Part shown: positions 43,770 through 49,757 of the stretch, piece by piece | Numbering within the stretch: position 1 is the stretch's first letter | Layout of the letters: every line of letters starts with the position of its first letter | DNA from: Selenomonas sp. oral taxon 892 str. F0426 | Lineage (GTDB): Bacteria; Bacillota; Negativicutes; Selenomonadales; Selenomonadaceae | Assembly (NCBI RefSeq): GCF_000468035.1 | Contig: NZ_KI260542.1 | Location: forward strand, 40,062 to 104,061 | Direction: 5' to 3' | Length of the DNA stretch: 64,000 bases | Notes under the pieces: model-generated | Database searches by the model: none | What the model was told of the DNA's origin: nothing | Seen by the model: the letters and a program-made list of their open reading frames with translations, nothing else | Translations under genes and position numbers: made by a program

Positions 43770-45131
43770 TTAGTTCGTCAACGACCTCGTTGGTGCGGGG
43801 ATCCGCCCTCCCCGTGCAATAAATGCCGCTGAGCTGAATGCACTGCGCACCGGAACGATCGGCGAGTACCCAAGGAGTCCGCCGAACGATACCCCCTCCC
43901 CCACCTTTTTCCCAGGTACGGGGATAATTCGAACTGCCGTCGTCTTGTTGTTCACCATGCCGATTGCCGCCTCATCTGCAATGATCGCGGCGATCGTTGC
44001 AGCCGGAGTATCCCCCTCGACGGCGATCATATCAAGACCGACCGAGCAGACGCAGGTCATCGCCTCCAATTTTTCAATCGAGAGGCTGCCGCATTCAACA
44101 GCTGCGATCATGCCCTCATCCTCACTGACAGGAATAAACGCGCCCGACAGTCCACCAACATGGGAGCTGGCCATGAGCCCGCCCTTCTTGACTGCGTCGT
44201 TGAGGAGTGCTAATGCAGCTGTTGTGCCGGGAGCGCCGCATGCCTCGATCCCCATTTCCTCGAGAATACGCGCAACGCTGTCCCCGACCTCTGATGTCGG
44301 TGCAAGAGAGAGGTCGATAATTCCAAACGGTACGCCAAGGCGACGTGATGCCTCTCGTGCAACAAGCTGTCCAACGCGTGTGATCTTAAATGCCGTCCGC
44401 TTGATCGTCTCCGCAATCTCTGTGAAGTCTGCCCCCTTCAGCTCCTCAAGGGCATGTTTCACGACACCTGGCCCACTGACCCCCACATTGATAACGCGAT
44501 CCCCCTCGGCGACTCCGTGAAACGCTCCCGCCATAAAGGGATTATCTCCGGGCGCGTTGCAGAATACAACAATCTTTGCACAGCCGAGAGCCTCTTGCTC
44601 ACGCGTCAGCTCCGCCGTGCGCTTGATCACATCACCCATCTCACGCACGGCATCCATATTGATGCCCGCCTTCGTTGAGCCGATATTCACCGACGAGCAG
44701 ACGATATCCGTTGCCGCCATGGCCTGGGGAATCGAGTCGATGAGCACGCGATCGCCATGCGTCATCCCCTTTTCGACGAGTGCGGAAAAGCCTCCGATGA
44801 AATTGACGCCGACGGCCTTTGCCGCACGATCAAGCGCTTCTGCAACGGGTACAAACGAATCTGTCCGGCATGCATCCGCCGCAATGGCAATCGGTGTAAC
44901 GGAAATACGCTTATTGATGATAGGAATGCCGTACTCCGCCTCGATATCCTCGCCCGTGCGTACAAGATATTCTGCCGAGCTCGTGATCTTTTCATACACA
45001 TTCTGACAAAACTTATCAATGTTCGGATGTGCACAGTCTCGCAGGGAAATCCCCATCGTTATGGTCCGCACATCGAGGCGGTTCTCCGTAATCATCCGAT
45101 TTGTTTCACGGATGTCCTCAAATGTAATCAC
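43770..45131 (-). CDS. UPF0210 / PFL family protein
   Basis: The 453-residue protein belongs to UPF0210 (DUF711), a family with a glycyl-radical-enzyme-like fold and no established activity. Recognisable segments are [36 protein letters not shown] and [17 protein letters not shown]. The start was set at GTG 45131 (MITFEDIRE) because GAGGG lies 7 bases upstream. A TTG at 45149 overlapping the upstream stop is possible. It is nearly always paired with the ACT-domain gene found immediately upstream here. Confidence 0.85.
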
Positions 45132-45145
45132 TCTTTTGCCCTCGC

Positions 45146-45418
45146 TCAAATGCTGTGCATGACCTGAAAGATCTCCTGGTGCTGAAGCTTGATTTCAAGC
45201 CCGCGCTCCTCCCCCTTTTTCCGCAGAAGTTCCTGCAGATCCTTCAGGCGGATCTCCGCGTCATCCGGCATCTCAGCAATCATGACCATATTGAAAAACC
45301 CATCCATGATATTCTGGTTCACATTTAGGATGTTCACGCGCTGCTCGGCAAGAATCCCACTCACCATCGCCACAATACCGACCTGATCCCGCCCGACAAT
45401 CGTCACAACCAGCTTCAT
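45146..45418 (-). CDS. ACT domain protein, UPF0237
   Basis: The 90-residue protein is a single ACT domain, with [21 protein letters not shown] at the start split here for length as [11 protein letters not shown] and [10 protein letters not shown]. It is likely to bind a small molecule and modulate its UPF0210 partner. The ATG at 45418 has GAGGAG 8 bases upstream. A GTG nine bases earlier would overlap that site. Its own promoter is at 45484-45512. Confidence 0.88.
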
Positions 45419-45483
45419 CGTCGTCACTCCTCATCGAAAATATGCACACATCCAACGCAGATTGCGATAGAGATATACAATAA

Positions 45484-45554: not shown

Positions 45555-45600
45555 AAAATCCCCATACGTCGGTCAGCATCCGTCGCATGGGGATTATTTT
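45555..45600 (-). terminator. Terminator after the ferredoxin/NapH-like operon
   Basis: AATCCCCAT and ATGGGGATT pair across a GC-rich loop (45557-45565 with 45587-45595). On the minus strand the stem is followed by TTTTA, directly past the stop of the membrane Fe-S gene. Confidence 0.7.
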
Positions 45601-45613
45601 TATGGCGATTGTA

Positions 45614-46237
45614 TCAGTCATTCGGGCACATACGCCGCTCACCGGGGATTACCGCATCCGCAGCCGCTGTTGCTTTTGCACGGCAGATCATCTGCGTCAT
45701 TGTACCCATGGGACAGATGACACACCAAGCGCGTGGACGATAGCGCAGCATCATCAGAATACCGATGATTGCCGAGGTCAGCATGAGGCTGTAGAAGCCA
45801 AAGGCAAACTGTGCTGCCCACGGCGCACCGCCTCCGCTGTACGCCCACCCCCACGGCACATCAAAGAGCCAGAACAGTGTCACAGTCTCTTGCAGAGGAG
45901 CGCCTGCCGCCGCATGATAGCTCACAACCATCACATTGGCAAACATGGTCAGAAAAAACGCCAGAAAACCATAGCGGAATCTGCGGGTGCGCAGCCACGC
46001 AGGCAGTTCCTTCCGCGCGGAAAGACGCAAACGGCTGCCGAGCAGCTGAAAGAGCTGCCCGCGATCACAGTAGTGATTGCAGTAAGCCTTGTTCCCCGCC
46101 AGCAGGGCAAAGCCGAGCGGCGTAAGAAAACAGATCATGCCGAGCCATGCAAACAGAATATTGACAAAGCCCAGAGAGAAATACACGATGGAGAAGATCC
46201 AAAAGTATTGATACCATCGCGTCCGCCGCTCCCTCAT
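45614..46237 (-). CDS. NapH-like 4Fe-4S membrane protein
   Basis: The 207-residue protein has about four membrane helices and two cysteine motifs of the NapH/YccM/RnfE-like quinol-side electron carriers: AYCNHYCDRGQLFQLLG (C53, C57) and AWCVICPMGTMTQ. It lacks the C-terminal ferredoxin domain common in that family. A separate 2[4Fe-4S] ferredoxin gene immediately upstream may supply it. The start at 46237 (MRERRTRWYQ) uses GGAGGTGCACAC, which lies at the end of the ferredoxin gene, with a four-base overlap. It probably moves electrons between the membrane and the cytoplasmic reductase of this operon. Confidence 0.75.
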   Translation of the reverse strand: MRERRTRWYQYFWIFSIVYFSLGFVNILFAWLGMICFLTPLGFALLAGNKAYCNHYCDRGQLFQLLGSRLRLSARKELPAWLRTRRFRYGFLAFFLTMFANVMVVSYHAAAGAPLQETVTLFWLFDVPWGWAYSGGGAPWAAQFAFGFYSLMLTSAIIGILMMLRYRPRAWCVICPMGTMTQMICRAKATAAADAVIPGERRMCPND

Positions 46238-46437
46238 GTGTGCACCTCCATTCGTATGACCTCCGCCGGACACTCGCGGCTGCACATACCGCAGCCGACA
46301 CAGTGAGCGGGATCGACCGTCGCATAGAGTCCGCGCAGAATGGTGATCGCACCGCGTGGGCACACATTCTGACACGTTCCGCAGGCAACACAGCTGCCGC
46401 GCTCAACAACAGGAAGCAGGCGCTTCTTCGTCCCCAT
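46234..46437 (-). CDS. Ferredoxin with two [4Fe-4S] clusters
   Basis: The 67-residue protein has two full C-x2-C-x2-C-x3-CP motifs: C16, C19, C22, C26 and C46, C49, C52, C56. The start at 46437 has GGAGGG 9 bases upstream and lies inside the 3' end of arsR. It overlaps the NapH-like gene by four bases. Together the two look like a split polyferredoxin. Confidence 0.88.
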   Translation of the reverse strand: MGTKKRLLPVVERGSCVACGTCQNVCPRGAITILRGLYATVDPAHCVGCGMCSRECPAEVIRMEVHT

Positions 46438-46741
46438 GAGATGTTCCCTCCTTGCCTTCCGCACGGAGAAGCGCACGCAGAATCTGCGCAACGCGCTCAT
46501 CTTTCAGCCGATAGGTGACCTCAAGTCCACTGCGCTCTCCACGGATCAGTCCCGCCTGCCGCAGCTTGCTCAGATGCTGCGATACGGTGGACTGCGGCGC
46601 ATCCAGACAATCCTGCATATAGGAAACGTTGCAGCTCCCCTCACGCAGAAGCCGTCGCACAATACAGAGGCGCACGGGATGCGCCAATGCACGCAAAAAA
46701 TCCGCCGCCTCCTCAAGTAGCTCCCGATCCTCAATCACCAT
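46403..46741 (-). CDS. ArsR/SmtB family transcription regulator
   Basis: The 112-residue winged-helix protein has ALAHPVRLCIVRRLL and the recognition helix APQSTVSQHLSKLRQAGLI. Cysteines are at 26, 37, 45 and in a terminal pair 111-112. Family members with such cysteines sense metals or sulfane sulfur. It lies one base after the CoA-disulfide reductase gene and overlaps the ferredoxin gene by 35 bases, so it probably regulates its own operon. The inducer is not known. A persulfide or polysulfide is my best guess from the neighbours. Confidence 0.85.
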   Translation of the reverse strand: MVIEDRELLEEAADFLRALAHPVRLCIVRRLLREGSCNVSYMQDCLDAPQSTVSQHLSKLRQAGLIRGERSGLEVTYRLKDERVAQILRALLRAEGKEGTSHGDEEAPASCC

Positions 46742-46742
46742 T

Positions 46743-48401
46743 TCATATCTCCTCTTCGTGCTGCATTCTCAAATAATAGTATCCACCGACCATATTCTTT
46801 GCTGTGAATCCGTGTGCGCGCAGAATCTGTTCGGCAAGATAGCCGCGCAGCCCCATCTTGCAGCAAACGATGATTGGAGTCTTCGGATCAAATTCATGCA
46901 GGCGTTCACGCAGCTGCGGCAGAGGAATCCGCTGCGCCCCCGCAATCTCACCGGTGTGGTATTCCTCCGGCGGACGCACATCAATGAGCATCGCTCCTGC
47001 TGCGACTTCCGCCGCCAGTTCACGCGGGAGAAGAGGGACACTTCTGCCCTGCAGGATATTTTCCGCCGCATAGCCTGCCATATTTACGGGGTCTTTTGCC
47101 GCAGAATACGGCGGCGCGTAGGACAGCTCGAACTCCTGCAGATCTGCCACCGTAAGCGACTGCCCGATTGCGGCGGCAATCACGTCGATACGCTTATCCA
47201 CGCCCTCCGATCCGATTGCCTGTGCCCCCAATATCACGCCGTCCGATGTACGGAACATCAGCTTGAGTGCAATTTCCTGCGCCCCCGGATAATAGGTCAC
47301 ATGATGTCGTGGAAAAATCACCGTAAAGCGATAGTCCTCACCATATTTCAGCCCCGCTGCCTGCAAGGCACGCTCATTCTGTCCCGTCGCCGCAGCGGTA
47401 CGTCCAAATACCTTCAACGCAGCCGTTCCGATCACGCCGCGATAAGCACGCCCCACTCCCGCCATGCTGTCCGCCGCCAGACGCGCCTGCCGATTTGCGG
47501 GTCCGGCCAAGGGAAGTGCCGCTTCCTTTCCCGTCTGCGCGGAACGTGTTAGCACGGCGTCCCCCACCGCATACACATCAGGCACATTTGTCCTCATGTA
47601 TTCATCAACGAGGATATGCCCACGCGCACCGAGAGCAATATCGCTCCCCTCTAGAAAGGACGTATCGGGGCGCACGCCAATCGCAAGTGCGACAAAATCT
47701 CCATGCACCTCACGCCCGCTGCCGAGGCGCACGCAGATTCCACCGTCCGACTGCTCCTCAAATCCCGCAACACCGTCCCCGAGTACCAGTTCCACACCAT
47801 GTCTGCGCAGTTCATCTTCAAGTAGAGAAATCATGTCTGTATCGAATACGGGGAGAATATGCGGCATTGCCTCGACCAAGGTCACAGAAAGCCCCCGCTC
47901 GCAGAAATTCTCCGCCAGCTCCACACCGATAAAGCCCCCGCCAACCACAACGACGCTGCGCCCCGTTTCCATCATCGCGCGGAAGCGATCCGCATCCTGC
48001 ACGCTGCGCAGCGTCGCAATACGCGGATGTTCAATGCCGGGAATCGGCGGACGTAGCGGCTTCGCTCCCGGTGAAAGCAACAGCGCGTCATAACGCTCCG
48101 TGTAGACACTGTCCGCAGAGCGTACCTCCACCGTATGCTGCGCCGTATCCACACGCACAACCTCACTGCATACACGCACATCGACGTTATACATTCCACG
48201 AAACTTTGCTGGGGTCTGGAGCAGCAGATCCCCGCGCTCGGCGATGACATCCCCCACATAGTACGGAAGTCCACAGTTTGCAAAGGATATATCCTCTCCA
48301 CGCTCAAAGAGAACAATCTCCGCGTGTTCATCCAAACGGCGCAGGCGTGCTGCAGCCGTTGCTCCACCTGCCACGCCTCCAACAATGATATATTTGCTCA
48401 C
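46743..48401 (-). CDS. cdr: CoA-disulfide reductase with C-terminal rhodanese domain
   Basis: The 552-residue protein combines a flavin pyridine-nucleotide disulfide oxidoreductase with a rhodanese. The FAD loop is VGGVAGGATAAARLRR, the single active-site cysteine is C43 in SFANCGLPYY, as in known CoA-disulfide reductases, and the NAD loop is VVVGGGFIGVELAE. The rhodanese part (about 455-545) has IVCCKMGLRGYLAE with the CxxGxR-type active loop. Such fusions reduce CoA disulfide or CoA-persulfide and polysulfide. The start is GTG after AAGGAG. It is the first gene of the operon. Confidence 0.92.
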   Translation of the reverse strand: MSKYIIVGGVAGGATAAARLRRLDEHAEIVLFERGEDISFANCGLPYYVGDVIAERGDLLLQTPAKFRGMYNVDVRVCSEVVRVDTAQHTVEVRSADSVYTERYDALLLSPGAKPLRPPIPGIEHPRIATLRSVQDADRFRAMMETGRSVVVVGGGFIGVELAENFCERGLSVTLVEAMPHILPVFDTDMISLLEDELRRHGVELVLGDGVAGFEEQSDGGICVRLGSGREVHGDFVALAIGVRPDTSFLEGSDIALGARGHILVDEYMRTNVPDVYAVGDAVLTRSAQTGKEAALPLAGPANRQARLAADSMAGVGRAYRGVIGTAALKVFGRTAAATGQNERALQAAGLKYGEDYRFTVIFPRHHVTYYPGAQEIALKLMFRTSDGVILGAQAIGSEGVDKRIDVIAAAIGQSLTVADLQEFELSYAPPYSAAKDPVNMAGYAAENILQGRSVPLLPRELAAEVAAGAMLIDVRPPEEYHTGEIAGAQRIPLPQLRERLHEFDPKTPIIVCCKMGLRGYLAEQILRAHGFTAKNMVGGYYYLRMQHEEEI

Positions 48402-48429
48402 GATATCATCTCCTTTTCTATATATTTAT

Positions 48430-48458
48430 ATATTACGATATAACGTTTTAATTGTCAA
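48430..48458 (-). promoter_or_regulatory. Promoter of the cdr-arsR operon
   Basis: On the minus strand a consensus TTGACA (48453-48458) and TAATAT (48430-48435) are 17 bases apart. The -10 region continues into an AT-rich, partly symmetrical ATATATAAATATAT stretch, a plausible ArsR operator between promoter and ribosome site. Confidence 0.8.
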
Positions 48459-48462
48459 TAAG

Positions 48463-48511
48463 AACGGGGCGCGTACACGAAGATTTTTGATCTTCATGCA
48501 CCTGCCCCGTT
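48463..48511 (-). terminator. Terminator after the methionine gamma-lyase gene
   Basis: ACGGGGC pairs with GCCCCGT on the outside and GAAGAT with ATCTTC on the inside, forming a long stem. On the minus strand TTCTTATT follows. It ends the hsp20-cheR-pyr-lyase run just upstream of the cdr promoter. Confidence 0.75.
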
Positions 48512-48521
48512 TGCCAGCTTT

Positions 48522-49757
48522 TTATGATAGAATCGCCTCTGCCGCCGCCATTACGCCGAGTGCTGCGTGCTCAAAGGTCAGGCCGCCCTGCAGATAGATG
48601 CAGTATGGTTCGCGCATCGGACCGTCCGCGCTCAACTCGATCGACGCCCCCTGTACGAATGTCCCCGCTGCCATGATGATCTGATCAGCATAGCCCGGCA
48701 TATCCCACGGCTCCGGTGCCGCAAAGGAGTCCACAGGAGACATCGACTGGATCGCGCCGGCGAATGCTTTCATCCGCTCCGCACTCCCAAGAACAATTGC
48801 CTGTATAATATCACTGCGTTCATATGTAAATCGCGGGAAGGTGCGACAGCCTAGTCCTTCAAAGATGCCGGCTGCAAAGACTGCTCCCTTGAGTGCCTGC
48901 GCCACAACGTGCGGCGCGAGAAACAGCCCCTGAAAGAGAAGTCGGTTCGAAATGAGACTTGCCCCAAGTTCATCCCCCATTCCAGGTGCTGTGAGCCGAT
49001 ACGACGCCATCTCTACGAGCTCACTACGTCCCGCAATATAGCCGCCCGTCGGGGCAAGTCCGCCTCCTGGATTCTTGATGAGCGAGCCGGCCATAATGTC
49101 CACATTCGGCAGTTCCGTCGGCTCAACCGTATCGACAAATTCACCGTAGCAGTTGTCCACGAATACAATACAATTTGGATTCGCTGCCTTGATCCGCGCA
49201 CTGACCGCGCGGATGTCCTCGATGCTGAGCGGCTCTCGCTCACTGTAGCCACGCGAGCGCTGCACAAGCGCGACCTTCGTCTGTGCCGTTACAACGCGCG
49301 CAATACCATCCAAATCGACGTGTCCATCCGGCATAGGCAGCTCATCATAGAGTACGCCAAACTCCTTGAGGGAGCCGATACTCTCATGTGCCCAACCAAT
49401 GACAGTCTGCATCGTATCGTACGGCGCTCCTGTGATCGAGACAAGTTGATCGCCGGGTCTCAGGATGCCGAAGAGCACCGTTGCAAGCGCGTGCGTTCCG
49501 GAGACGAAGTGCGTCCGTACGAGCGCCCGCTCCGCACCAAAAACGCGCGCATAGAGTTCATCCAGCTTTTCCCGCCCGAGATCGCTGTACGCATATCCTG
49601 CGCTCACGCCAAAGTGTGCATCGGAAACGCGGCACTCCCGCATGGCATCCAGCACCTTGCGGGTATTGAACTCCGCGACTTCATCCATTCGTGCAAACGT
49701 ATCACGTGCCCGCTCAATAACCTCCGCGCGCAGCGTGCCTAACTCGTCCCTCTGCAA
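48522..49757 (-). CDS. Methionine gamma-lyase family protein (YnbB-like)
   Basis: The 411-residue PLP enzyme has the catalytic lysine in MAGSLIKNPGGGLAPTGGY and VDNCYGEFVDT before it, the pattern of the family annotated as methionine gamma-lyase or 'aluminium resistance protein'. It is related to Cys/Met metabolism enzymes. The true reaction is unproven in most members. The start is TTG at 49757 after AGTAGGA, four bases from the upstream unknown gene, and it is the last gene of its operon. Confidence 0.85.
   Translation of the reverse strand: MQRDELGTLRAEVIERARDTFARMDEVAEFNTRKVLDAMRECRVSDAHFGVSAGYAYSDLGREKLDELYARVFGAERALVRTHFVSGTHALATVLFGILRPGDQLVSITGAPYDTMQTVIGWAHESIGSLKEFGVLYDELPMPDGHVDLDGIARVVTAQTKVALVQRSRGYSEREPLSIEDIRAVSARIKAANPNCIVFVDNCYGEFVDTVEPTELPNVDIMAGSLIKNPGGGLAPTGGYIAGRSELVEMASYRLTAPGMGDELGASLISNRLLFQGLFLAPHVVAQALKGAVFAAGIFEGLGCRTFPRFTYERSDIIQAIVLGSAERMKAFAGAIQSMSPVDSFAAPEPWDMPGYADQIIMAAGTFVQGASIELSADGPMREPYCIYLQGGLTFEHAALGVMAAAEAILS

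Follow-up and report, generated by a model that had tools for sequence, protein, structure and literature searches.

A probable ArsR-controlled persulfide-response operon with a ferredoxin and a NapH-like membrane protein in Selenomonas

Coenzyme A (CoA)-persulfide reductase (CoAPR) of Enterococcus faecalis acts through a flavin-side cysteine (C42) and a rhodanese cysteine (C508) and is controlled by CstR, a CsoR-type regulator; no ferredoxin or NapH-like pair is reported with it (PMC9405070). The same architecture, a CoA-disulfide reductase (CoADR) with a rhodanese domain (RHD), occurs in CoADR-RHD of Bacillus anthracis and in Npsr of Shewanella and Archaeoglobus, for which no ArsR partner and no iron-sulfur (Fe-S) module were found in the open-access literature. 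Sensor classes of ArsR regulators have been described (PMC10509353, PMC8960804), among them SqrR and BigR with a cysteine pair in helices α2 and α5, and arsenic sensors with a CxC motif (PMC10509353). NapH-like systems are known with flavinylated partners (PMC8238504), and thioredoxin systems have been described in clostridia (PMC10880999). A stretch of 64,000 nt from Selenomonas sp. oral taxon 892 str. F0426 (the window) was analysed here, in which genes for a CoADR-RHD, an ArsR repressor, a ferredoxin and a NapH-like membrane protein probably constitute a self-repressed operon responding to persulfide (sulfane sulfur), with the ferredoxin and the NapH-like protein as an extra electron path.

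The four genes lie in series on the minus strand (45614–48458) and are accompanied by the following elements:
45556–45595, minus strand: terminator (hairpin and T-run; −23.4 kcal/mol, z −5.55) directly 3′ of the NapH-like gene
45614–46237, minus strand: NapH-like membrane Fe-S protein, 207 aa, ATG start (Pfam Fer4_5, 34.4 bits, cut-off 22)
46234–46437, minus strand: 2[4Fe-4S] ferredoxin, 67 aa (Pfam; alignment of 15 homologues)
46403–46741, minus strand: ArsR/SmtB-type repressor, 112 aa (family profiles; AF2 model, pLDDT 85; Foldseek)
46743–48401, minus strand: CoADR-rhodanese, a CoA-persulfide-reductase-like flavoenzyme, 552 aa, GTG start (Pfam Pyr_redox_2, Pyr_redox_dim, Rhodanese)
48421–48450, minus strand: predicted ArsR operator TAAAACGTTATATCGTAATATATAAATATA, overlapping the −10 hexamer; 35.2 bits
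48430–48458, minus strand: sigma-70-like promoter TTGACA-17-TAATAT, 28 nt 5′ of the CoADR-RHD GTG start
48463–48511, no strand assigned: terminator hairpin (inverted repeat; −32.9 kcal/mol, z −6.39) between an upstream methionine-γ-lyase-like gene and the operon

The CoADR-RHD and ArsR genes are separated by 1 nt, the ArsR and ferredoxin genes overlap by 35 nt and the ferredoxin and NapH-like genes by 4 nt (ATGA); each of the four is preceded by a purine-rich ribosome-binding site. With the promoter and terminator as bounds, the genes are predicted to be a single transcription unit, as an earlier note on this DNA had proposed.

A 30-bp near-palindrome that spans the −10 box is common to the sequences 5′ of ArsR-CoADR loci; at one locus (L107) it is the perfect palindrome TATATTCATATAT-TGTA-ATATATGAATATA. 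A matrix was built from 27 such sites, the window and its genus being excluded. Among 2000 Markov sequences the highest score was 23.1 bits, and none (0/2000) reached the score of the window site, which a pattern search identified as the single site in the 2.3-Mb genome; a second operator-like match was rejected (three mismatches, <18 bits). At loci held out from training, the operator was present in 10 of 11 ArsR promoters and in 3/3 promoters of stand-alone ferredoxin-NapH pairs. Throughout 1.5 Mb of fetched loci, every site of at least 28 bits bar one precedes ArsR, CoADR or ferredoxin/NapH genes; these loci were picked around regulon-type genes and include near-copies, so that the result describes precision within them and not a genome-wide rate. 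No operator was found at the CoADR genes of genomes without an ArsR of this clade (L098, L213, L219–L221), although these CoADRs nest inside the operator-bearing CoADR clade. Since the operator occurs in ArsR, CoADR and ferredoxin-NapH promoters and is missing where the ArsR is missing, the regulator, the operator and both target sets appear to belong together. At the sequence level, self-regulation by way of a conserved operator over the operon's own promoter, as the earlier note had supposed, and a regulon joining CoADR to ferredoxin-NapH are both well supported.

Several further operator sites were recorded. The sole site of at least 28 bits that does not precede a known regulon gene (L163:1308) is followed by a 337-aa open frame. 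Two sites (L053:6368, 28.3 bits; L056:6864, 27.4 bits) lie just 5′ of distant NapH-like genes of two other families, in genomes that encode an ArsR of the clade elsewhere. Rumen Selenomonas without an adjoining CoADR carry operons of operator, ArsR, thioredoxin and a thioredoxin reductase (TrxR)-like protein (L298:2678–4210, L299, L300, L311), and the operator is also found before ferredoxin-NapH elsewhere in the same genomes (in trans). The TrxR-like protein of L298 keeps the GxGxxA stretch and has no HRRxxxR NADPH motif.

Within the genus, 7 of 14 genomes contain both CoADR and NapH and the other 7 contain neither, which is more than a chance neighbourhood would give. In the survey of co-occurrence that the earlier note had proposed, 151 Selenomonadaceae genomes were tallied by hand: NapH was present in 66 and CoADR in 56, with 40 genomes having the two. 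The two genes lie no more than 3 kb apart in 22 of the 151, and 19 of these 22 contain all four genes, so that the set does recur, in three orders (CoADR-ArsR-ferredoxin-NapH, ArsR-CoADR-ferredoxin-NapH and ArsR-ferredoxin-NapH-CoADR); in one further case (L306) CoADR is cut by the contig end. Ferredoxin-NapH-CoADR without ArsR was found in three Selenomonadaceae (L210–L212) and in Clostridia, where the genes are together in L129 and L137 and near one another in L150 and L178. At least nine changes of the linked state are required on the NapH tree, which was rooted by a fragment (L307) and used for label-change counts only, and at least six on the CoADR tree; the Clostridial CoADRs fall in another CoADR clade. 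The link between CoADR and NapH was therefore made or lost several times. Among 398 genomes of the phylum, CoADR (160) greatly outnumbers the NapH family (24), so that the four-gene set represents a local combination of widespread ArsR-CoADR and ferredoxin-NapH pairs.

In the enzyme, a flavin domain is fused to a C-terminal rhodanese domain (Pfam; full-length alignment to 8a56 and 3icr). Its top match among solved proteins is E. faecalis CoAPR (8a56, E=7e-158), followed by B. anthracis CoADR-RHD (E=4e-154). Domain order and length are shared with CoAPR, and the catalytic C43 (SFANCGLPYY) and the rhodanese C514 (CCKMGLRG) align with C42 and C508 of that protein, in keeping with the persulfide-type chemistry that the earlier note had suggested. 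By analogy with CoAPR, the window enzyme most likely removes excess sulfur from CoA. The two differ in their control: the E. faecalis enzyme is under CstR, whereas that of the window is under an ArsR with its own operator.

The window ArsR contains five cysteines, C26, C37, C45, C111 and C112. An alignment of 37 CoADR-linked ArsRs, which include near-identical ones, shows C26 and C45 in every member (37/37) and C37 in 35; the C-terminal CC tail is restricted to the genus. The AF2 model places C26 in α2, C37 just before α3 and C45 in α3, and its Foldseek matches are SmtB, PagR, NolR, BigR, HlyU and SqrR. With the persulfide sensors SqrR, BigR, HlyU and YgaV the protein has in common the ArsR fold, the neighbourhood of sulfur genes and the reliance on cysteines; it differs in having C26, C45 and C37 at the positions given in place of an α2/α5 pair. 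The conservation thus bears out the earlier idea of a cysteine-based sensor, but not the residues named for it (C37 and C45), C26 having been overlooked and C37 being lost in 2 of 37 homologues. In the 398 genomes of the phylum, 55 of 100 ArsRs of this clade lie within 3 kb of CoADR and several more adjoin a fused or divergent CoADR; CoADR-containing frames of 841–898 aa also accompany the clade, and at one locus (L280) TusA and DsrE-type sulfur carriers stand beside a divergent CoADR. In three clade ArsRs that do not adjoin CoADR (L276, L279, L282), C45 is replaced by His.

A general disulfide or oxygen stress operon is an unlikely alternative. The ArsR would then be a RexT-like thiol switch for H2O2 or O2, CoADR would reduce CoA disulfide or serve as an NADH oxidase, and ferredoxin-NapH would help to reduce O2 or to keep thiols reduced. 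RexT-type peroxide sensors use cysteines around α3 (PMC8960804), which C37 and C45 flank in the window protein, and the genes of their ArsR cluster are found near those of NADH oxidoreductases (PMC10509353); thioredoxin and the TrxR-like protein stand in for CoADR in some regulons, and the member organisms are strict anaerobes needing protection from O2. RexT, however, has two proximal α3 cysteines, whereas here the invariant pair is C26/C45 and not a vicinal α3 pair. The window ArsR is nearer to SmtB, PagR and BigR than to RexT, and the rhodanese domain with its cysteine and the TusA/DsrE-type neighbours indicate sulfane sulfur.

All eight cluster cysteines of the ferredoxin are invariant among the 15 aligned homologues. 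For the NapH-like gene, a longer GTG reading (253 aa) in the list of open reading frames was set aside because it runs through the ferredoxin. Four long helices are predicted in the AF2 model of the 207-aa protein (modest confidence), and its Fer4_5 domain carries C53xxxC57 and C172xxC175P between transmembrane helices, invariant in 37 homologues; from their positively charged flanks, both motifs are predicted to face the cytoplasm. It is not NapH proper: the protein contains no Fer4 domain, and no nap genes were found in the immediate neighbourhood. The description as a split polyferredoxin, given in the earlier note, is a fair one because the protein has no Fer4 of its own and is paired with a separate ferredoxin. 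Like the NapGH and NapH-like systems (PMC8238504), the window combines a Fer4_5 (PF12801) membrane protein with a ferredoxin-type protein; it differs from them in that the ferredoxin is small and cytoplasmic, the membrane protein has no C-terminal Fer4, and neither an FMN-binding domain nor a respiratory reductase is encoded at the locus. Foldseek returned no solved relative of the NapH-like model (best E 3.5), and the fold is therefore uninformative about partners.

In 77 of 80 named loci the two genes lie side by side; the loci come from groups as varied as Selenomonadaceae, Lachnospiraceae, Clostridioides, Synergistaceae, spirochaetes (including Treponema) and a Mailhella. Clustering of the neighbours by similarity, with shadow frames possibly among a handful of the entries, gave Crp/Fnr-type regulators (16 loci), ArsR-type regulators (13), CoADR (12), thioredoxin/TlpA-like/CcdA-type proteins (10) and C_GCAxxG_C_C proteins (6). 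The HlyU/SqrR/BigR-type ArsRs beside Clostridial pairs keep the persulfide-sensing cysteines of α2 and α5. All of these contexts are ones of thiol or sulfane-sulfur chemistry, which suggests that the pair serves such chemistry. Beyond this, it can be put forward tentatively that a ferredoxin and a short NapH-like protein constitute a class of their own among membrane electron-transfer modules, devoted to the reduction of thiols or persulfides and recruited by unrelated regulators (the C26/C45 ArsR clade, SqrR/HlyU-type ArsR and Crp/Fnr) into regulons with CoA-persulfide reductase, thioredoxin/TrxR-like proteins or CcdA-TlpA. If so, it would be a module class of anaerobes that is undescribed in the literature open to the search.

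Among the individual loci, six from Clostridia or Synergistaceae (L133, L135, L144, L157, L165, L166) have ferredoxin-NapH followed by an ArsR of the HlyU/SqrR/BigR type. One from Eubacteriales (L194:5001–10579) has ferredoxin, NapH, Crp/Fnr, CcdA, a TlpA-like protein, an 81-aa cysteine-rich protein, thioredoxin and CoADR in a row; an assignment of the 81-aa protein as a ferredoxin-thioredoxin reductase chain was dropped, as it had no Pfam or NCBIfam match.

Coupling to the quinone pool, which the earlier note had considered, fared less well. In this case the operon would serve dissimilatory sulfur or polysulfide reduction, with ferredoxin-NapH between menaquinol and ferredoxin and an NADH-dependent reduction of persulfide, which is improbable. 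NapH-family proteins have been proposed to be quinol-linked (PMC8238504). The CoADR-RHD resembles the Npsr persulfide reductases (3nta, 3nt6), and a UbiA-type prenyltransferase is present in the genus. Such a prenyltransferase is needed for menaquinone. The pair is, however, abundant in Clostridia and spirochaetes, with many holders among Lachnospiraceae, Clostridioides and Treponema; these groups are not known to have respiratory quinones, which weakens the quinone-pool idea. Both cysteine motifs of the NapH-like protein are, moreover, predicted to be cytoplasmic, and no periplasmic or respiratory subunit lies alongside the pair. A metal or arsenite resistance operon under a classical metal-sensing ArsR, for which the ArsR/SmtB fold and the ArsP-type permease halves adjoining one ferredoxin-NapH pair (L132) could be cited, is very improbable, given that the α3 CxC motif for As(III) is absent (the window reads CNVS, with N38 and S40 in its place), genes for a transporter, an arsenate reductase or metal efflux are missing from the operon, and NCBIfam assigns the repressor to a general metalloregulator subfamily only.

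In a persulfide-response operon, the ArsR dimer would bind the near-palindrome, located by comparative sequence analysis, and repress its own transcription. A rise in persulfide or polysulfide would modify C26 and C45 (with C37), and the repressor would release the DNA. Sulfane sulfur would be accepted as CoA persulfide by the rhodanese cysteine of CoADR-RHD, and the flavin site would convert CoA persulfide into CoA and H2S with NAD(P)H, both steps being modelled on the CoAPR orthologue. The four conserved cysteines of the membrane-anchored NapH-like protein probably hold an Fe-S site on the cytoplasmic side of the membrane, and together with its dedicated ferredoxin the protein may provide an extra electron path for the reduction of thiols or persulfides at the membrane, as its place in the regulon suggests.

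Several points weigh against this persulfide-response role. The enzyme missed the cut-off of the NCBIfam equivalog TIGR03385 for CoA-disulfide reductase (454.8 compared with 578.8 bits), so that CoAPR/CoADR-RHD-like is a better label than stand-alone CoA-disulfide reductase; an NAD(P)H-dependent CoADR has no obvious need for a ferredoxin or a membrane partner, and ferredoxin-NapH lies mostly away from CoADR (12 of 80 named loci with it). The α2/α5 pair of SqrR and BigR is absent, C26 being three residues off the α2 cysteine position of BigR and an α5 cysteine not being conserved; persulfide sensing is therefore assigned by association, and persulfide is a predicted inducer. On balance, the central suggestion of the earlier note, a self-regulated, recurrent operon for persulfide chemistry, is strengthened.

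Through this analysis, two things acquire a context that bears on function: an Fe-S membrane pair that is widespread and unnamed, and an ArsR clade whose invariant cysteines form an unusual set. Because the operator is conserved, the proposal is directly testable with one repressor, one site, a predicted class of inducer and a four-gene operon. If correct, strict anaerobes of mouth and rumen would use an ArsR for persulfides where enterococci use CstR, and a membrane ferredoxin path would be added that models of sulfide biology in aerobes lack. The operon, the operator and a part for ferredoxin-NapH in the persulfide response were all undescribed in the literature searched, which, being open-access only, makes this absence weak evidence of novelty.

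Scans with Rfam models and for tRNAs gave no matches in the window. The upstream neighbour of the operon (48522–49757) encodes a protein of the Met_gamma_lyase family (PF06838), possibly of sulfur amino acid metabolism, and is set apart by the strong terminator listed above. On the other side (43770–45427) are overlapping genes for an ACT-domain protein and a DUF711 protein, a pair kept in 14/14 genomes of the genus. The operon adjoins this pair in 6 of its 7 carriers, and the seven other genomes of the genus have the pair without the operon at that spot.

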